This document shows, one piece after another, positions 3,383 to 41,318 of a stretch of DNA of 64,000 nt. Position numbers and translations under genes: made by a program. The stretch spans positions 9,375,832-9,439,831 of the forward strand of contig OZ038458.1 in NCBI GenBank assembly GCA_964036195.1, given 5' to 3'. This stretch comes from Sphaerolaimus hirsutus (taxonomy: Eukaryota > Nematoda > Chromadorea > Monhysterida > Sphaerolaimidae). The first letter of the stretch is position 1, and each line of letters begins with the position of its first letter. The notes under the pieces were generated by a model that did no database searches, was not told where the DNA came from, and saw only the letters and a list, made by a program, of their open reading frames with translations.

Positions 3383-4316
3383 TAGGGTTCAAACGATATA
3401 TCGTATCGAATATCGAATATCGGATATCGACCATTTTTTAATATCGAATATCGAATATCGATATCGAAAATTTTGAAAAAATATCGAATATCGAATATCG
3501 ATATCGAAAATTTTGAAAAAATATCGAATATCAAATATCGATATCGAAAATTTTGAAAAAATATCGAATATCGATATCGAATATCGACCATATTTTCGAT
3601 ATATCGAACCTGTATAATGTCCTTAATTGAGTTATTATTTTTGTTTTGAGATATTTGTGATTAATTTGATTTGCTTATAGTATCTAAGTTGATGAGTAAA
3701 AGTAAAGTATTTAATGTTATCTTTGTTGGAGTGCTTACTCCACATTTCTTGTATTTGGTTTGGCCACATACCTACTGAACTACCTACCTCATATTTGAAG
3801 CCAGAAAATGCTGATATGCTGCTTTTTTGGAACATGCCCTTAAACAATTGGGTTATAAGTATGAATTGTTGTATCTACCAATTTTTGTTTGTCTGATACA
3901 ATTTGATTCGTCATGTTTTTTCTTCGATTTTTTCATTCTGACCATTGTAAACCTTGTTAAAATCAATTGTACTTTTCAGTAAAGAGATAATCAACCATGT
4001 TTGCAACCATATGAAAATACAACATGCTGCTTGAAATATGCCTTGCTATACCAAAAGCTAAATATCGAATATCAAAAATATCGAAATATCGATATCGAAT
4101 ATCGACCATTTTTTAGTATCGAATATCGAATATCGATATCGAGGGTCCATATCGTATCGAATATCGATATCGAAAATTTTGAAAAACTATCGAATATCGA
4201 ATATCGATATCGAAAATTTTGAAAAAATATCGAATATCGAATATCGATATCGAAAATTTTGAAAAAATATCGAATATCGAATATCGATATCGAAAAGTGA
4301 TATCGTTTGAACCCTA
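3383..4316. mobile_element. hAT-like element with ATATCG arrays, 8-bp TSD CTGACATG
   Basis: The ends TAGGGTTCAAACGATAT and ATATCGTTTGAACCCTA are inverted repeats. The 8-bp direct repeat CTGACATG flanks it exactly (3375-3382 and 4317-4324), a hallmark of hAT insertion. Two arrays of degenerate ATATCG units (about 3395-3606 and 4062-4300) surround roughly 450 bp of ordinary AT-rich sequence with no transposase. The arrays repeat the motif found next to the TIR. Confidence 0.85.
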
Positions 4317-24830: not shown

Positions 24831-24851
24831 TTAAAAGCACCTGGAAGTTGC

Positions 24852-26775
24852 GCCATTTTTATGGAGTCACGCTATCGACTCCAAAGTAGCGCCATTTCCA
24901 TGGCATTGGCGCCATTTTTATGGAGTGGCGCTATCAACTCCAAAATAGCGCCATTTCCATGGCGTTGGCGCCATTTTTATGGAGTGGCACTATCAACTCC
25001 AAAATAGTGCCATTTCCATGGTGTTGGCGCCATTTTTATGGAGTGGCACTATCAACTCTAAAATAACGCCATTTCCATGGCGTTGGCGCCATTTTTATGG
25101 AGTGGCACTATCGACTCCAAAGTAGCGCCAATTCCATGGCATTGGCGCCGTTTTTATGGAGTGGTGCTGTCGACTCTAAAATAACGCCATTTCCATGGCG
25201 TTGGCGCCATTTTTATGGAGTGGCACTATCGACTCCAAAGTAGCGCTATTTCCATGGCATTGGCGCCATTTTTATGGAGTCACGCTATCGACTCCAAAGT
25301 AGCGCCATTTCCATGGCATTGGCGCCATTTTTATGGAGTGGCGCTATCAACTCCAAAATAACGCCATTTCCATGGCGTTGGCGCCATTTTTATGGAGTGG
25401 CACTATCAACTCCAAAATAGCGCCATTTCCATGGCGTTGGCGCCATTTTTATGGAGTGGCGCTATCAACTCCAAAATAACGCCATTTCCATGGCGTTGGC
25501 GCCATTTTTATGGAGTGGCACTATCAACTCCAAAATAGCGCCATTTCCATGGCGTTGGCGCCATTTTTATGGAGTGTTGCTGTTGACTCCAAAGTAGCGC
25601 CATTTCCATGGCGTTGGCGCCATTTTTATGGAGTGGCACTATCGACTCCAAAGTAGCGCTATTTCCATGGCATTGGCGCCATTTTTATGGAGTCACGCTA
25701 TCGACTCCAAAGTAGCGCCATTTCCATGGCATTGGCGCCATTTTTATGGAGTGGCGCTATCAACTCCAAAATAACGCCATTTCCATGGCGTTGGCGCCAT
25801 TTTTATGGAGTGGCACTATCAACTCCAAAATAGCGCCATTTCCATGGCGTTGGCGCCATTTTTATGGAGTGGCGCTATCAACTCCAAAATAGCGCCATTT
25901 CCATGGCGTTGGCGCCATTTTTATGGAGTGGCACTATCAACTCCAAAATAGTGCCATTTCCATGGTGTTGGCGCCATTTTTATGGAGTGGCACTATCAAC
26001 TCTAAAATAACGCCATTTCCATGGCGTTGGCGCCATTTTTATGGAGTGGCACTATCGACTCCAAAGTAGCGCCAATTCCATGGCATTGGCGCCGTTTTTA
26101 TGGAGTGGTGCTGTCGACTCTAAAATAACGCCATTTCCATGGCGTTGGCGCCATTTTTATGGAGTGGCACTATCGACTCCAAAGTAGCGCTATTTCCATG
26201 GCATTGGCGCCATTTTTATGGAGTCACGCTATCGACTCCAAAGTAGCGCCATTTCCATGGCATTGGCGCCATTTTTATGGAGTGGCGCTATCAACTCCAA
26301 AATAACGCCATTTCCATGGCGTTGGCGCCATTTTTATGGAGTGGCACTATCAACTCCAAAATAGCGCCATTTCCATGGCGTTGGCGCCATTTTTATGGAG
26401 TGGCGCTATCAACTCCAAAATAACGCCATTTCCATGGCGTTGGCGCCATTTTTATGGAGTGGCACTATCAACTCCAAAATAGCGCCATTTCCATGGCGTT
26501 GGCACCATTTTTATGGAGTGTTGCTGTTGACTCCAAAGTAGCGCCATTTCCATGGCGTTGGCGCCATTTTTATGGAGTGGCACTATCAACTCCAAAATAG
26601 TGCCATTTCCATGGTGTTGGCGCCATTTTTATGGAGTGGCACTATCAACTCTAAAATAACGCCATTTCCATGGCGTTGGCGCCATTTTTATGGAGTGGCA
26701 CTATCGACTCCAAAGTAGCGCCAATTCCATGGCATTGGCGCCGTTTTTATGGAGTGGTGCTGTCGACTCCAAAAT
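24852..26775 (+). repeat. 59-bp tandem satellite, about 32 copies
   Basis: The unit reads GGCGCCATTTTTATGGAGTG, then a GGCACTATCAACTCC variant, then AAAATAGCGCCATTTCCATG and GCGTT. The period is 59 bp. Variants (CACGCTATCGACTCC, TTGCTGTTGACTCC, GTGCTGTCGACTC) recur at multiples of 7-9 units, indicating higher-order blocks copied as groups. GGAGT...ACTCC and GGCGCC within the unit can form hairpins. The same unit occurs inverted at 33,318. Confidence 0.93.
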
Positions 26776-33317: not shown

Positions 33318-35612
33318 GTGTAGTGCCACTCCAGAAAAATGGCGCCAACGCCATGGAAATGGCGCTATTTTGGAGTTGATAGCACCACTCCATAAAAATG
33401 GTGCTAACGCCATGGAAATGGCGCTACTTTGGAGTCAACAGCAACACTCCATAAAAATGGCGCCAACGCCATGGAAATGGCGCTATTTTGGAGTCAATAG
33501 TGCCACTCCATAAAAATGGCACCAATGCCATGGAAATGGCGCTGTTTTGGAGTTGATAGCGCCACTCCATAAAAATGGCGCTAACGCCATGGAAATGGCG
33601 CTACTTTGGAGTCAACAGCAACACTCCATAAAAATGGCGCCAACGCCATGGAAATGGCGCTATTTTGCGAGTTGATAGTGCCACTCCATAAAAATGGCGC
33701 CAACGCCATAAAAATGGCGCTACTTTGGAGTCAATAGTGCCACTCCATAAAAATGGCGCCAACGCCATGGAAATGGCGCTACTTTGGAGTCAATAGTGCC
33801 ACTCCATAAAAATGGCGCCAACGCCATGGAAATGGCGCTATTTTGGAGTTGATAGCGCCACTCCATAAAAATGGCGCTAACGCCATGGAAATGGCGCTAC
33901 TTTGGAGTCAACAGCAACACTCCATAAAAATGGTGCCAACGCCATGGAAATGGCGCTACTTTGGAGTCAATAGTGCCACTCCATAAAAATGGTGCCAACA
34001 CCATGGAAATGGCGCTACTTTGGAGTCAATAGTGCCACTCCATAAAAATGGCACCAACGCCATGGAAATGGCGCTATTTTGGAGTTGATAGCGCCACTCC
34101 ATAAAAATGGCGCTAACGCCATGGAAATGGCGCTACTTTGGAGTCAACAGCAACACTCCATAAAAATGGCGCCAACGCCATGGAAATGGCGCTATTTTGC
34201 GAGTTGATAGTGCCACTCCATAAAAATGGCGCCAACGCCATAAAAATGGCGCTACTTTGGAGTCAATAGTGCCACTCCATAAAAATGGCGCCAACGCCAT
34301 GGAAATGGCGCTACTTTGGAGTCAACAGCAACACTCCATAAAAATGGCGCCAACGCCATGGAAATGGCGCTATTTTGCGAGTTGATAGTGCCACGCCATA
34401 AAAATGGCGCCAACGCCATAAAAATGGCGCTACTTTGGAGTCAATAGTGCCACTCCATAAAAATGGCGCCAACGCCATGGAAATGGCGCTACTTTGGAGT
34501 CAATAGTGCCACTCCATAAAAATGGCGCCAACGCCATGGAAATGGCGCTATTTTGGAGTTGATAGCGCCACTCCATAAAAATGGCGCTAACGCCATGGAA
34601 ATGGCGCTACTTTGGAGTCAACAGCAACACTCCATAAAAATGGTGCCAACGCCATGGAAATGGCGCTACTTTGGAGTCAATAGTGCCACTCCATAAAAAT
34701 GGTGCCAACACCATGGAAATGGCGCTACTTTGGAGTCAATAGTGCCACTCCATAAAAATGGCACCAACGCCATGGAAATGGCGCTATTTTGGAGTTGATA
34801 GCGCCACTCCATAAAAATGGCGCTAACGCCATGGAAATGGCGCTACTTTGGAGTCAACAGCAACACTCCATAAAAATGGTGCCAACGCCATGGAAATGGC
34901 GCTACTTTGGAGTCAATAGTGCCACTCCATAAAAATGGCGCCAACGCCATGGAAATGGCGCTACTTTGGAGTCAATAGTGCCACTCCATAAAAATGGCGC
35001 CAACGCCATGGAAATGGCGCTATTTTGGAGTTGATAGCGCCACTCCATAAAAATGGCGCTAACGCCATGGAAATGGCGCTACTTTGGAGTCAACAGCAAC
35101 ACTCCATAAAAATGGTGCCAACGCCATGGAAATGGCGCTATTTTGCGAGTTGATAGTGCCACTCCATAAAAATGGCGCCAACGCCATAAAAATGGCGCTA
35201 CTTTGGAGTCAATAGTGCCACTCCATAAAAATGGCGCCAACGCCATGGAAATGGCGCTACTTTGGAGTCAATAGTGCCACTCCATAAAAATGGCGCCAAC
35301 GCCATGGAAATGGCGCTATTTTGGAGTTGATAGCGCCACTCCATAAAAATGGCGCTAACGCCATGGAAATGGCGCTACTTTGGAGTCAACAGCAACACTC
35401 CATAAAAATGGTGCCAACGCCATGGAAATGGCGCTACTTTGGAGTCAATAGTGCCACTCCATAAAAATGGTGCCAACACCATGGAAATGGCGCTACTTTG
35501 GAGTCAATAGTGCCACTCCATAAAAATGGCACCAACGCCATGGAAATGGCGCTACTTTGGAGTCAATAGTGCCACTCCATAAAAATGGCGCCAACGCCAT
35601 GGAAATGGCACT
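33318..35612 (-). repeat. 59-bp tandem satellite, inverted array, about 39 copies
   Basis: This is the same unit as at 24,852 on the opposite strand: CACTCCATAAAAATGGCGCC, then AACGCCATGGAAATGGCGCT, then the ACTTTGGAGTCAATAGTG variants. Marker variants (GCAACACTCC, TTTTGCGAGTTGATAG, AACGCCATAAAAATGG) recur in blocks, so higher-order amplification occurred within this array after the arms separated. Confidence 0.93.
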
Positions 35613-35639
35613 ACTTTTACAAACGATGTTCAGTAAACA

Positions 35640-36280: not shown

Positions 36281-36284
36281 GCGT

Positions 36285-36730
36285 TGTTATGGCCGCTTAA
36301 TTGCGGTCATAAATATTTGAATTGTAGTTTGATTTTTTATAGGATGCCAAGGCCAACGTGGATCTAACCGGCGCTTTATTTAGTGATTTCGGTTGACAGA
36401 TTATAAGTTGGGGGCGAAATTAAATTAGGTAGAATTTAGGAAAAAATAGCGAGTCAAAAATCATGTAAACATTGACTGCCAGCCGATGGAAAAATCGGCT
36501 GGTGAACGATCGAAAAAAGGGGAGGCATAAAAAAGCCTAAAAAAGCGCACACAACAATAAGAGATGCCCTTGTGCGCGGGCACTTATTTAGGTAACACGC
36601 AATGTCGCAATACTACAGCGGCGCGTGTAAACGATAGGCTAGGGGGCATGGAAACAGGTATTTTAAACCTACCATAGGAAAATGAATGTAAGTATACCTA
36701 TATTAAATGGCGCCTACAGCGGGCATAACA
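36285..36730 (-). repeat. 3' LTR of the gag-pro retrotransposon
   Basis: 446 bp, ending with the same TGTTATG / CATAACA termini as its partner. It contains a sense-strand AATAAA polyadenylation signal (36,375-36,380) and a 9-bp-stem hairpin, CCAGCCGAT...ATCGGCTGG (36,479-36,502). It differs from the 5' LTR at two positions (GTGATTTC versus GCGATTTC, and GGGCGAAAT versus GGGCAAAAT). Confidence 0.95.
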
Positions 36731-36739
36731 GCCCCTCCC
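36731..36739 (-). promoter_or_regulatory. Polypurine tract
   Basis: Sense-strand GGGAGGGGC immediately precedes the 3' LTR, the expected place for plus-strand DNA priming. Confidence 0.75.
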
Positions 36740-37003
36740 ATGACAACAGTTACACTACTTAAAAAACACTAGTGGAACTGGAAGTCAAACAAAAGCTTAC
36801 ACAAAGAAGCTACAAAAAATTTCAGCCACATAAAATTGCATGGAATTTTCAAGTTACCCAAATGGAACATGATCAGTAACTGAAAAAACATCCAGAATCA
36901 CAAATGGATCAGATTGAGATATAGTTGTTGAGAGAAAAAGACAATTTAGAAAGTTCATTTTCAAAATGGACACATGCACACCCTACAATCATGGCGGCAC
37001 TCT
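36740..37003 (-). other. 3' untranslated part of the retrotransposon
   Basis: It spans from the Gag-Pro stop to the polypurine tract, 264 bp, too short for a polymerase. No motif of reverse transcriptase or integrase is present in any frame. Confidence 0.8.
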
Positions 37004-39604
37004 TTAGCCTGGATTCCACTGGGTGCTGGAGCTAAGCCTCGCCTTGTGCTTGCAGCGCATGCAGGGCTCGCCCCGAGGGTTGGTCACCAGTTGACCATCG
37101 GATTTTCCAGGGTTCACCAACATGAACTCGGCATGTGGTGAAACGCATTTGGCAGAATTGCGAAAACATTTGGTGGCAGACTTTTTGCGCGGGGGCCTGC
37201 CGTAGACCTTGCTGCCCTTGGTGCGTGGCAGTGTAGCGGGCTTCGACGAGTGCGATTTCCGAATGCCAGTAATTGGCGCCAATTCATGTGGTATTTTAGT
37301 GACCACCGATTGCGAAGGAATTGCCCCTTTAGTCAGGGACTGGCGGATACAAGTCGATTCACCCATGGCTTTGGGCACGAAATTGGCCTCGAGTCGCTGG
37401 AGCTCGGAGATAGCCGTGCGATTCATTTTGAGTGTGCCGTAGAGTGCCTCATGGCCGAATAATAGGGGGCTCGATGTGCGTGGGAAGTGTGGTTTCCGTT
37501 TAACCACAGCCCAGATGTCTGCCAATTGCTGTTGTCCACCGGGTGTGGTATGCAGCAAATGCATTTTGTAGAGCGCCAGGTGATGCCCTGGAATCGGCTT
37601 GCCGGCAGTCCCCAAAGCTGAATCAGGGTATGACCGGTACTTTGCCTTCTCCATGCTGGCATTGCACTGTGCGCGTTTCCAAACATCCTCGAGCAGGTGC
37701 TCCTCAATGATGATCCCCTCCTCACAGCCACTATCAAGTGTGCCTGTGAGCATGCAGCCCATGAAATCCACTTGAGCCAGCGGACGATCACAATGGGGGT
37801 GTCGCACGCTTGCTGGGCTCATGGGGCAACCCATCTGCTTGTGAGCTGCATAGCCGCTAGGGAACCACGTTTCAAAATCATCGGGCTCAGGCTCGGAATC
37901 AGATGGCGGATTAGAAACATTTTTAGTCATTTTAGTAGATGGATTACCACTAGGTTCGGTGTCAGATTCAGGGGCACTATAGATGTGCTCATCCACTTTC
38001 AGATTGAGTTTGCCACACTCAATGCGCATATTTTTCTGAGCATCATGCTCAGTCTTGCCGGCCTTACGCAGGAAGTCTCGGGCTCGTTCCGCCCGATCCA
38101 GTCGATAGGCAGGAGAATCAGGATTCAAATAGCATTTTGCCGGCTCATGCAGCATGGGTGCACGATGCATGAAATAGGTGCACCATGGACCCTGATGTGT
38201 CGTCGGGTCAAATTTTGACTGCCTATCCCAGCCATCGTTTCGACTGCCAGATTGACCCGAGGCATTCATGGATGCAGCCACAGCTGGTGGGTCATTGGAC
38301 CATCCAGCGTTTCCACCGTTCGACGGATTCGGTGCACGATTAGCATTACGCTGCTCATTTCGTTCGGCCCGATAATGCAGATTTTCCTCACGCGTGATGT
38401 CGAGGCGTCCAACGACATCCGCCAGTTCGATCTGACCATCTTGCCATTTCTCGCGCCACGGATACCAAAGAGACATTGGCAGCATTCCTCCAATCTCGAG
38501 GAACAATTTATCGCCAATCATTTTCTCGCGCTGTGAGTCGTCAATCTGCTCACTAATATAGTGGAATGTGCTGCACAATCTGCTGTACAGGGTGGCCACA
38601 GAATCAGTAGGTTTAGCCGAAATTCGATACCACTCAGCGACGGAATGCGCCTTGCGGTCCACTCGAAAAACACGAGCCAATTTGTCGAGAACATAAAGCA
38701 CGGTATTGCGCTTATCCAGGCGAATAGAAATATAGTGCGCCTGTGCGCTTCCCTTCAAGCATTGCTGGAAAACATTGGTCCAGAACAAATGTTGATATGG
38801 TGGGGGAACGTTCAGAGCCTGTAGCGCCACATTGTGAAGCCAAAATTTAAAGGGCCCCGACGGCGCGCTCGAATCCCCGTTGAATGGTGTCTGCTTGCTG
38901 GCGACAGTGGCTACATGGCCGCCACTCATGCGATCACTGGAGGAAATTTGTGCCAGCGCATCCACAAGCGACGGAAAGCCATCGGCTGGGACCATGACGT
39001 ATTGGTCGACGTAGGCGGCAATTTGACCAATCAAACCGCCAGGTGATGATGACACAGCCTGCAACCTAGCTTCGGTTGAATCAAGTGGCTGGTTAGTAGG
39101 TGTAGTAGAGGGGGTCCTCAATGGACAATGATTGTTTGTGCCAGGTGCCGGTATCGATTGCGAACCCGCGGGCGCATTTTGGACCGGTGCCATATGTGCC
39201 GGCACCGCTTGTGAAGCCAACTGTTGGGCAATTGCAGCAGGGAGTTGTTGGATAGCCGATAAAAGATCGACCATTGTCAGTGCTGCAGTCGGCTGGGCAG
39301 CGGCGACACCTTGAAGCAGCATGGGGTTGTCCCCAATGCCTCTGGGTGGTACTTGATCATCCAGGTCAAGCACCAATTCTAATACGGTGTTTGCATCTGT
39401 GAAATATAGATCCATGCACCGCCACACATGCCGAATCAATGGCTCAGTTCCAAGGCAGGGTGGATCACTAATCGTAGGCCACTCATCGTCATCAACTCGA
39501 AACTGCAAAAGCACACTTAGCAAACGCAGCAATTTCTGCCGCTCTGTGCGCTCGACCCACGACTCGACGATCGGTTCCAGTTCCACTCGCGTATATTGCG
39601 ACAT
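37004..39604 (-). CDS. gag: Gag-protease polyprotein of the LTR retrotransposon, 866 aa
   Basis: A single frame starts at ATG 39,604 (A at -3). Residues 1-90 are helical and Leu-rich. Residues 100-240 are an Ala/Pro/Gln-rich linker. Residues 245-410 resemble a retrotransposon capsid domain (FWLHNVALQAL, CLKGSAQAHY, VLDKLARVF, VAEWYRIS). A Zn-knuckle-like C475-X4-H480-X5-H486-X4-C491 follows. Residues 612-720 look like a retropepsin: LDSG at 623-626 with D624 catalytic, and the later LLFGHEAL (714-721) at the usual hydrophobic-Gly flap partner. The basic tail (785-866) has C813, C820, C848 and C851 and may bind nucleic acid. No RT follows. Expected roles are particle assembly, RNA binding and self-cleavage. 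DSG in place of DTG is known in some retroelement proteases. Confidence 0.9.
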   Translation of the reverse strand: MSQYTRVELEPIVESWVERTERQKLLRLLSVLLQFRVDDDEWPTISDPPCLGTEPLIRHVWRCMDLYFTDANTVLELVLDLDDQVPPRGIGDNPMLLQGVAAAQPTAALTMVDLLSAIQQLPAAIAQQLASQAVPAHMAPVQNAPAGSQSIPAPGTNNHCPLRTPSTTPTNQPLDSTEARLQAVSSSPGGLIGQIAAYVDQYVMVPADGFPSLVDALAQISSSDRMSGGHVATVASKQTPFNGDSSAPSGPFKFWLHNVALQALNVPPPYQHLFWTNVFQQCLKGSAQAHYISIRLDKRNTVLYVLDKLARVFRVDRKAHSVAEWYRISAKPTDSVATLYSRLCSTFHYISEQIDDSQREKMIGDKLFLEIGGMLPMSLWYPWREKWQDGQIELADVVGRLDITREENLHYRAERNEQRNANRAPNPSNGGNAGWSNDPPAVAASMNASGQSGSRNDGWDRQSKFDPTTHQGPWCTYFMHRAPMLHEPAKCYLNPDSPAYRLDRAERARDFLRKAGKTEHDAQKNMRIECGKLNLKVDEHIYSAPESDTEPSGNPSTKMTKNVSNPPSDSEPEPDDFETWFPSGYAAHKQMGCPMSPASVRHPHCDRPLAQVDFMGCMLTGTLDSGCEEGIIIEEHLLEDVWKRAQCNASMEKAKYRSYPDSALGTAGKPIPGHHLALYKMHLLHTTPGGQQQLADIWAVVKRKPHFPRTSSPLLFGHEALYGTLKMNRTAISELQRLEANFVPKAMGESTCIRQSLTKGAIPSQSVVTKIPHELAPITGIRKSHSSKPATLPRTKGSKVYGRPPRKKSATKCFRNSAKCVSPHAEFMLVNPGKSDGQLVTNPRGEPCMRCKHKARLSSSTQWNPG

Positions 39605-40574
39605 GTTAGAAAATGTGGGGTCACTAAATCTGCACTAGCACAATTTGGTGCAAATATGGTGCAGGAGTGGCCACACACAACTGGAGCAGTCGAGCATTTG
39701 AGTGGCAAAGTACACTCAAAATTGATGCAACAATTGGCGCGTCCGGTGGCGCACTGCGGCCAGCAAGTGGGCGTGCAATTCCGTCACGCTGACGCAGCAA
39801 AAGCGTTTGGCGCCAATGGCCAACAAATTGGAACAGGGCCAAGCGCCTACGAAATTTGAAACTGGCCCCAGTGGCCAGTTAACGGGATGGCACCCAGCGC
39901 AGTGGCAAAATGTCGCTGGCCCCAGTGGCTCAGCGACAGGGAAAACCGAAAATTTCCGATCAACCCCAGTGGCTGATCGGGATCGGAAAATGTGCGGCAA
40001 AACGTGCCGCGAAAACCGGGCAGAAATCGATCAGGGGGCCCGTCGAGTTGCGTGTCGCTGGCCCCAGTGGCTCAGCAACAAAAACAAAATTTTCCGGCCA
40101 GCCCCAGCGGCTGATCGGAATAATGGTGCAGCACCTCGCTGGTCATTCGCTGGCCCCAGTGGCACAGCGAAAACCGTTGGGTTCGATCAGCCCCAGTGGC
40201 TGATCGAGTTGATAAAGCGGCGCGAAGCTGCGCCGCAATGTCACTAGCCCCAGTGGCAAAGCGACACGGAAAAACGATTTCGATCAGCCCCAGTGGCTGA
40301 TCGAGTTGATAAAGCGGCGCGAAGCTGCGCCGCAATGTCGCTAGCCCCAGTGGCAAAGCGACACGGAAAAACGATTTCGATCAGCCCCAGTGGCTGATCG
40401 AAGGAAGTGGTCGGCCGGCCGCGCAGCCCCAGTGGCTGATAAGCAGTCGGCGGCAGGCGGCGACGAATGCCGTGGTGTTGCCGAAATTTGGCAGCACAAA
40501 ACGCGGCGAAATTTGCCGCTAGGCCGGGCGGAACAGGAGGCCCGGGGTCGATTATTTGGGAGCGAAATTAATCG
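39605..40574 (-). ncRNA. Structured 5' leader with about twelve ACUGG-loop hairpins
   Basis: The sense strand contains a repeated hairpin core, GCC-ACUGG-GGC, at 39,860, 39,911, 39,958, 40,053, 40,094, 40,146, 40,183, 40,239, 40,280, 40,336, 40,377 and 40,424. Outer stems differ: AACUG/CAGUU; GAUCA/UGAUC; UGUCGCUG/CAGCGACA with a bulged A; UUCGCUG/CAGCGAA with a bulged U. Pairing is kept in most. The hairpin at 40,094 has a GCUGG loop and one mismatch. The arrangement is consistent with a packaging or translation-control signal read by Gag, but this is inference. Antisense frames over this region are incidental. Confidence 0.8.
40183..40401 (-). repeat. 97-bp tandem duplication in the leader
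   Basis: Hairpins at 40,183, 40,280 and 40,377, and those at 40,239 and 40,336, are spaced exactly 97 bp apart. Each unit holds one GAUCA-stem hairpin, one GUCGCU-stem hairpin and a GC hairpin, GCGGCGC...GCGCCGC (first copy 40,217-40,236). The hairpin array therefore grows partly by tandem duplication. Confidence 0.9.
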
Positions 40575-40592
40575 CTCCCAGTACAGTCACCA
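40575..40592 (-). promoter_or_regulatory. Primer-binding site
   Basis: The sense-strand sequence TGGTGACTGTACTGGGAG abuts the 5' LTR with no spacer. TGG matches the CCA 3' end of a tRNA. I cannot name the tRNA species with confidence. Confidence 0.75.
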
Positions 40593-41038
40593 TGTTATGG
40601 CCGCTTAATTGCGGTCATAAATATTTGAATTGTAGTTTGATTTTTTATAGGATGCCAAGGCCAACGTGGATCTAACCGGCGCTTTATTTAGCGATTTCGG
40701 TTGACAGATTATAAGTTGGGGGCAAAATTAAATTAGGTAGAATTTAGGAAAAAATAGCGAGTCAAAAATCATGTAAACATTGACTGCCAGCCGATGGAAA
40801 AATCGGCTGGTGAACGATCGAAAAAAGGGGAGGCATAAAAAAGCCTAAAAAAGCGCACACAACAATAAGAGATGCCCTTGTGCGCGGGCACTTATTTAGG
40901 TAACACGCAATGTCGCAATACTACAGCGGCGCGTGTAAACGATAGGCTAGGGGGCATGGAAACAGGTATTTTAAACCTACCATAGGAAAATGAATGTAAG
41001 TATACCTATATTAAATGGCGCCTACAGCGGGCATAACA
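40593..41038 (-). repeat. 5' LTR of the gag-pro retrotransposon
   Basis: 446 bp, promoter-side copy in the element's orientation. Its outer flank is GCGT at 41,039-41,042, matching the other end. It carries the same AATAAA and hairpin as the 3' LTR. I did not find a standard TATA box at a confident position. Confidence 0.95.
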
Positions 41039-41157
41039 GCGTAGCCACCAGTGATATTGTTGATGAAATGAAAATGAAAAAAATGGCACAAGATTGAGTC
41101 CTGAAAATAAATTTTTATTCTAAGTCTCAATCATATTTTTATCTTCGTGGTGTCAAT

Positions 41158-41318
41158 TAGGGTTCAATCGAATATCGGATATCGACCATTTTTTAATATC
41201 GAATATCGATATCCAAAATTTTGAAAAAATATCGAGTATGGAATATCGATATCGAAAATTTTGAAAAAATATCGAATATCGAATATCGATATCGAAAAGT
41301 CATATCGTTTGAACCCTA
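41158..41318. mobile_element. Short ATATCG hAT-like MITE, TSD GTGTCAAT
   Basis: This 161-bp element begins TAGGGTTCAATCGAATATCG and ends TATCGTTTGAACCCTA. It has perfect GTGTCAAT at 41,150-41,157 and 41,319-41,326. It is an internally deleted relative of the 934-bp element at 3383. Confidence 0.9.

Follow-up and report, generated by a model that had tools for sequence, protein, structure and literature searches.

What might read a hairpin that is repeated many times over, with nearly the same five-base loop, in the leader of a retroelement? The question is raised by a locus of the nematode Sphaerolaimus hirsutus, within a 64,000-nucleotide stretch of DNA (here called the window), in which an initial annotation recognized twelve such hairpins and suggested the element's own Gag as a possible reader. 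How the Gags of LTR retrotransposons pick out their own RNA is, to our knowledge, poorly known. We analysed the copy in the window and searched the genome (348 Mb, 762 contigs) for its relatives.

The retroelement and its hairpin array

The hairpins lie in an LTR retroelement with the following parts, given in window coordinates.

36281-36284, no strand: target-site duplication GCGT, left copy
36285-41038, minus strand: whole LTR retroelement, with LTRs, target-site duplication, primer binding site (PBS), polypurine tract and one 866-amino acid frame
36285-36730, minus strand: 3′ LTR (TGTTATG...CATAACA), part of a 448-bp direct repeat with 40593-41040 (2 mismatches)
36731-36739, minus strand: polypurine tract GGGAGGGGC before the 3′ LTR
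37004-39604, minus strand: Gag-type open frame of 866 amino acids, with a knuckle (C-x4-H-x5-H-x4-C; PWCTYFMH..H....C) and a protease-like DSG motif
39605-40592, minus strand: leader of 988 nt, with 2 upstream AUGs where about 15 are expected
39860-40438, minus strand: twelve-hairpin array (core GCC-RYUGG-GGC, outer stems variable)
40182-40375, minus strand: recent tandem duplication of 97 bp within the array (two units, each with two hairpins)
40557-40580, minus strand: hairpin overlapping the PBS end (UGGGAGCGA/UCGCUCCCA), with arms that differ in a paired way between families
40575-40592, minus strand: PBS TGGTGACTGTACTGGGAG, an 18-nt complement of the CCA-bearing 3′ end of a host tRNA-Arg(ACG)
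40593-41038, minus strand: 5′ LTR, from the same 448-bp direct-repeat alignment
41039-41042, no strand: target-site duplication GCGT, right copy

The TG...CA ends, the target-site duplication, the PBS adjoining the 5′ LTR and the polypurine tract are those of a Ty3/gypsy-type LTR element. The Ty3/gypsy order, with RNase H before integrase, is also seen within the family, where a piece of an array-bearing relative (L181) carries RT_RNaseH (E 1e-30) followed by rve (E 1.5e-16). The 866-amino acid frame has no match in Pfam, and sequence searches of Pfam and PDB returned no convincing Gag match among some weak, chance-like hits. We take its two motifs to be a zinc knuckle and a DSG like that of retropepsin; the knuckle spacing recurs in the Gag of a sister family (read in L165) and in a distant Gag (L167). 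Only 273 nt separate the gag stop from the 3′ LTR, and thus the window copy lacks pol.

Other repeats are present in the window. Two large arrays of a 59-bp unit (24850-26775 and 33321-35617) lie in opposite orientation and flank a stretch of roughly 6.5 kb; they look like satellites that bound, in inverted orientation, a larger mobile unit, and related 30-32-bp repeats occur outside them. A 40-bp satellite (TATCGAATATCGATATCG...) is found at three places (3404-3587, 4155-4296 and 41195-41298).

The annotated cores recur twelve times between 39865 and 40436, all in the sense orientation of the element, with ten exact and two carrying one change. When up to two mismatches are allowed, the core pattern has 26 matches in the window compared with 9.4 expected, a number reached in none of 100 shuffles. 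Folded alone with 18 flanking bases per side, 11 of the 12 form the described hairpin on the minus (sense) strand, and the twelfth (core at 40247) prefers another pairing in its folded stretch. Every outer stem named in the initial annotation was found, as were the GCUGG loop and the mismatch of the hairpin that it placed at 40,094 (core at 40101). Hairpins in the window array fall mainly into two classes. In the first the stem is straight (CGAUCA/UGAUCG); in the second it is interrupted by a one-base bulge or a small internal loop (UGUCGCUG/CAGCGACA). The segments 40182-40278 and 40279-40375 are 99% identical, which makes two of the twelve hairpins recent copies; the close relatives L083 and L085 have 10 cores each. 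Rfam gave no matches in the window at gathering score.

Distribution of the array among relatives

A leader search of the genome yielded at least 74 matches (40 of 111 candidates scored). Forty loci hold 432 cores, none of which lies on the opposite strand, and gag follows downstream in 39 of them; the stretch of the fortieth (L100) shows none. To avoid selecting loci by their hairpins, we also sampled leaders by Gag similarity alone, and all 20 of these (20 of 52 Gag matches) carry 5-12 cores. Sampling by PBS found 100 places, compared with 4 for a reversed control; among 38 such places not previously read, 19 have at least five cores, one has two, one has one and 17 have none, the last including tRNA-Arg genes and other families. 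Exact cores paired at 20-50 nt occur at 581 places genome-wide, compared with 0 for the reversed pattern. Across 88 loci there are 5-20 hairpins per locus (median 11) at a median spacing of 42 nt. The assignment of the array to a retroelement leader is borne out, and conservation of the array is well supported; a leader structure conserved within the family is also what is expected of a packaging signal. Beyond this genome, IMG/VR gave no relatives by Gag, a 15-base pattern gave at least 80 stretches there with a single match each and no arrays among the matches listed, and a phage collection gave nothing above chance.

Gag itself is kept in the family, as judged by a dN/dS of 0.15-0.22 over the first 290 amino acids of 32 copies (one copy with a stop was left out). 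Of 52 scored Gag matches (from 954 candidates), 45 are free of stops and 50 align along nearly the full length of gag. All three of the other copies read beyond gag are gag-only: sequence matching the LTR starts at position 356 (L168 and L170) or 679 (L169), counted along stretches that begin in the last gag codons; as it follows the end of gag by no more than about 700 nt, there is no room for pol. With a gag frame retained and no pol ahead of the 3′ LTR, such copies are of the gag-only, non-autonomous kind. Longer members also exist. When the genome was searched with the sister-family capsid region (146 of 775 candidates scored), the matches listed included 13 members of the window clade, 53-57% identical to that region, with frames of more than 2,400 amino acids, whose gag-pol status is taken from frame length. 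The array is present in all 12 that have a surviving 5′ end, with 5-10 cores in 11 leaders and 2 in one (L157); the thirteenth is cut 5′ of gag. The piece with RNase H and integrase described above comes from one of these long members. Thus, the array is common to gag-pol-length and gag-only copies. A further copy, L204, was considered as a gag-pol copy lacking the array and was rejected, as its leader is broken off about 65 bases before gag.

The initial annotation held that the discovery of Gag relatives devoid of the hairpins would count against its proposal. Relatives at 33-41% identity do lack this array, but one of these families has a different array. In that sister family (loci L150, L151, L152, L155, L161, L175 and L176), Gag is 38% identical over 746 amino acids (read in L165), the PBS is the same, the leader is long and the window-type core is absent. 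Its leaders have repeated hairpins of their own (five leaders contain 19), in which the CGCUAGUG/CACUAGCG stem is largely constant, a UU bulge is present and the apex changes (GGGC/GCCC, GAGC/GCUC). ACUGG on a GGC/GCC stem occurs in six non-array matches, at least four of which belong to this family.

Other relatives have short leaders without an array, namely L162 (Gag 35% identical over 293 amino acids; leader about 285 nt) and L146 (41% over 75 amino acids). No core was found in twelve leaders of families 46-51% identical to the sister capsid region, where leader ends are unmapped. Because these twelve leaders and the relative at 35% Gag identity are without the array, a Gag of this kind does not depend on it. 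The array marks one clade among the sampled families, not all Gags of this kind. Two candidate carriers, L190 and L197, were rejected, their repeated hairpin-like strings having the look of plain tandem repeats.

Several observations concern the PBS region. The hairpin that overlaps the PBS (GGGAG...CUCCC; loci L081-L140 and L145-L188) occurs in several families with a tRNA-Arg PBS, with arms that are paired family by family (GCGA/UCGC, GCUA/UAGC, AGCC/GGCU and GCACC/GGUGC). A second PBS version, TGGTGATCGTACTGGGAG, possibly matching another tRNA-Arg, is found in array-bearing copies (L085, which has one further change, L088, L089, L097, L100, L102, L111, L115, L118-L120, L128, L203 and L205-L208). 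In L179, the LTR end and PBS are followed, at sense offsets 66-1000, by a run of GGCGCTTGGCGCC-type palindromes with a Y-U-G-G centre.

Constraint on loop, stems and strand

When sites are placed by their flanking sequence, without regard to the core, the exact core is present in 445 of 499, one change in 50 and more changes in 4. Distinct variants per column amount to 0.055 in the core, 0.185 in the stem and 0.417 in the spacer (28 flank-anchored groups), making cores roughly 7-fold and stems roughly 2-fold less variable than spacers. A value of 0.039 for cores picked by pattern is partly built in, because 8 of the 11 letters are fixed in the search pattern; the same holds for the lack of change at core positions on hairpin trees. 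In pattern-picked groups, the stems show 68 distinct variants compared with about 215 predicted from the spacer rate.

These values bear on the alternative that the array arose by neutral tandem duplication of a palindromic unit and has no function. The recent duplication in the window copy and the variation in hairpin number from 5 to 20 would suit such a history, but the low variability of cores and stems relative to spacers and the presence of the array in 20 of 20 Gag-sampled leaders would not, and we judge it extremely improbable.

The two arms of a hairpin also vary together. In a set of 600 copies (392 distinct) that came from 60 loci and form 63 groups, with hairpins too near a locus end or with N left out, arms from the same hairpin pair at 0.785 compared with 0.619 when the 3′ arms are re-dealt, and none of 2,000 re-dealings reaches the observed value. 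Re-dealing within each of three hairpin classes reaches the observed pairing in 0, 2 and 0 of 2,000 trials; both forms of this test leave relatedness in. Among single stem changes, 32 of 66 keep a standard pair, compared with 30% expected (p 0.002), and since the other 34 break one, pairing is not strict. Double changes that keep pairing number 7 and 3 on tree branches, a modest excess over slid controls (1-4 and 0-1). The single-change counts omit group members less than 23/28 identical to the group majority, and hairpins with a tied class are omitted from both the single-change and the tree analyses. Together, the variation in cores and stems and the pairing tests uphold the view that the hairpins are conserved and structurally constrained over many copies.

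The loop is found on clearly different stems as well. In 85 leaders, RYUGG caps stems at least two changes away from GCC/GGC in 8 of 188 contexts, compared with 0.73 expected (p 1e-6), and stems at least three changes away in 5 of 159, compared with 0.62 (p 4e-4). For these counts similar contexts were merged, equal base use was assumed for the expectation and loci with fewer than five cores were left out; a looser count (15 of 236 compared with 0.92 expected, p 6e-14) took in one-change derivatives of the core and similar contexts. The stems capped in this way include AGGGC/GCCCU, CAGCCGA/UCGGCUG and UCAACC/GGUUGA. On the opposite strand the loop occurs on other stems in 5 of 165 contexts (at least two changes) and 1 of 135 (at least three), the first of these being an excess that is expected when stems are fully Watson-Crick. 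Constrained stems, kept pairing and the occurrence of RYUGG on different stems point to a hairpin read at its loop, rather than to a DNA site or a neutral duplication.

Another reading is a role at the DNA level, with the array serving as a set of sites for a host DNA-binding protein that acts on chromatin or transcription, as in the gypsy insulator. The number, size and position of the repeats are similar to those of that insulator, all sites share one orientation and the stems change without strand preference. However, a double-stranded site predicts neither arms that vary yet tend to stay complementary nor the same asymmetric loop on different stems, and the scarcity of upstream AUGs described below points to constraint on an mRNA. 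We consider this reading decidedly unlikely.

The commonest changes within the loop are A to G and C to T, and both would keep wobble pairing with the primer tRNA if the loops served to capture or anneal it, given the complementarity of ACUGGG to CCCAGU in the tRNA-Arg matched by the PBS. The tRNA-Arg gene and its 18-nt match to the PBS lend this idea some substance. Yet the six-base match is weak and post hoc, families with the same PBS are without the array, and the tRNA segment concerned is base-paired within the folded tRNA. A part in primer capture is thus highly improbable.

The initial annotation had seen selection on RNA structure in three hairpins with a change in one arm, each giving a G.U pair on the sense strand and an A.C mismatch on the other. 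The G.U pairs are present (cores at 39963, 40061 and 40247), but the argument fails when extended to the family. Single departures from Watson-Crick pairing in the outer stems comprise 25 G.U and 18 A.C (p 0.36; p 0.76 against the spacer spectrum), core stems show 11 G.U and 6 A.C contexts (p 0.33), settled stem states are evenly divided (23 and 23), and stems anchored on the loop show no significant difference in six tests. In the inner four pairs of the core hairpins, A.C even exceeds G.U (122 compared with 11 copies, 7 compared with 4 contexts). Moreover, all three changes are C-to-T on the sense strand, which is the commonest spacer change too, and the one at 40239 falls within the 97-bp duplication.

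Folding energy is also uninformative on the strand, because both leader strands fold strongly, and better than shuffled sequences (z of -10.0 for sense and -14.2 for antisense). Under local folding at span 60, closing pairs have mean probabilities of 0.76-0.94 in five leaders; at span 150 these fall to 0.53-0.69, because the hairpins can pair elsewhere. All 33 leaders examined have 0-3 upstream AUGs, compared with about 8-20 expected from shuffles, and CAT is less reduced (33 of the 60 loci L081-L140 were used; the 27 without an exact PBS or a found gag start were left out). This scarcity suggests that the leader is part of an mRNA that is scanned. RNA would then be the working form, to judge from the position in the leader, the loop and the scarcity of upstream AUGs.

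The equal numbers of G.U and A.C in settled stem states would also agree with hairpins that act in single-stranded DNA, for example in pausing or strand transfer during reverse transcription, and not in RNA. Such a role does not readily explain why the leader should hold about ten copies or why the loop should stay constant, and we regard it as very unlikely.

Candidate readers and known systems

We favour, at roughly even probability, a model in which the array in the 5′ leader of this Ty3/gypsy-type family acts as a multivalent RNA recognition tag, read by the family's own Gag for packaging. That Gag is the reader and packaging the outcome we infer. The part that is read would be the five-base loop, RYUGG, which in most units is ACUGG on a GCC/GGC stem, and the outer stem, free to change in sequence, would mainly need to pair so as to present the loop. 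On some ten hairpins, spaced about 42 nt apart between the PBS and gag, the family's own Gag (zinc knuckle and capsid) would gather and so select these RNAs for packaging; gag-only copies with the same array may be packaged together with gag-pol RNA and borrow its Pol. A Gag reader fits the restriction of the array to one clade, its sharing by gag-only copies and a reader tolerant of change in the stem.

The sister family invites a broader, more tentative proposal. Gag lineages in this genome may possibly carry multi-copy leader hairpin codes of their own, with ACUGG-loop arrays in one clade and the CGCUAGUG/CACUAGCG stem in its sister family. Each would be an address particular to its lineage, determining the RNAs that a Gag packages, and gag-only copies would keep it in order to be carried along.

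The main competitor to a Gag reader is a host RNA-binding protein that reads the hairpins and controls translation, stability or localization, for example a SAM-domain protein of the Smaug/Vts1 kind. Smaug recognition elements often occur several to an mRNA, and, like them, the array presents a hairpin loop that contains C-N-G-G: the C-U-G-G of the commonest loop, with YUGG resembling CNGG. An array in a leader that seems to be scanned would suit such control, as would the ACUGG loop on some hairpins of the sister family despite a Gag only 38% identical. According to the available part of one source, however, a Smaug element has to begin its loop with CNGG, and the base just before must be paired (PMC4053848), whereas the loop here is R-Y-U-G-G and opens with an unpaired purine. 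The loop C also becomes U in some copies, and the absence of the array from the other sampled families suggests a reader specific to the element. We judge a host reader unlikely, and return to Gag for comparison with known systems.

Murine leukaemia virus has paired packaging hairpins (Psi) in its leader, and the hairpins of the window family likewise occupy the stretch from PBS to gag and accompany a Gag that has a zinc knuckle. Retroviral Psi consists of one or a few different hairpins, unlike the roughly ten copies with one loop and changing stems described here, and Gag recognition is in our case a proposal drawn from sequence. According to the available part of the source (PMC6281560), the packaging signals dispersed in RNA viruses such as MS2 comprise many stem-loops with a common loop motif and variable stems. 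As described there, such signals are spread genome-wide and vary around a motif, unlike the compact, near-identical array in the non-coding leader of an LTR element.

The gypsy insulator lies in an untranslated region. It has 12 Su(Hw) sites in 460 bp within an LTR element, as given in the available part of its source (PMC9576066). Those are constant double-stranded DNA sites whose arms need no pairing, unlike the present array, in which complementary arms co-vary and one loop caps different stems.

Ty1 is a Copia-type element. Its leader RNA structure, a pseudoknot unlike the hairpin array here, guides the preference of Gag, for which high affinity and low specificity were found, so far as the available part of the source goes (PMC8396678).

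The window copy also resembles TR-GAG elements in having LTRs and a gag frame and lacking pol. These are by definition gag-only, non-autonomous LTR elements, and the papers found that use the term concern plants and, in the parts available, make no mention of leader hairpin arrays, unlike the family described here. Packaging hairpins and gag-only elements are both familiar. In the titles and abstract openings of the open-licence literature, we did not meet an LTR-element leader with some ten hairpins that share one loop. A natural hairpin repeat whose single loop is set on many stems, shared by gag-pol-length and gag-only copies, provides a recognition element that is compact and open to direct test, and the different array of the sister family would permit a test of its specificity.
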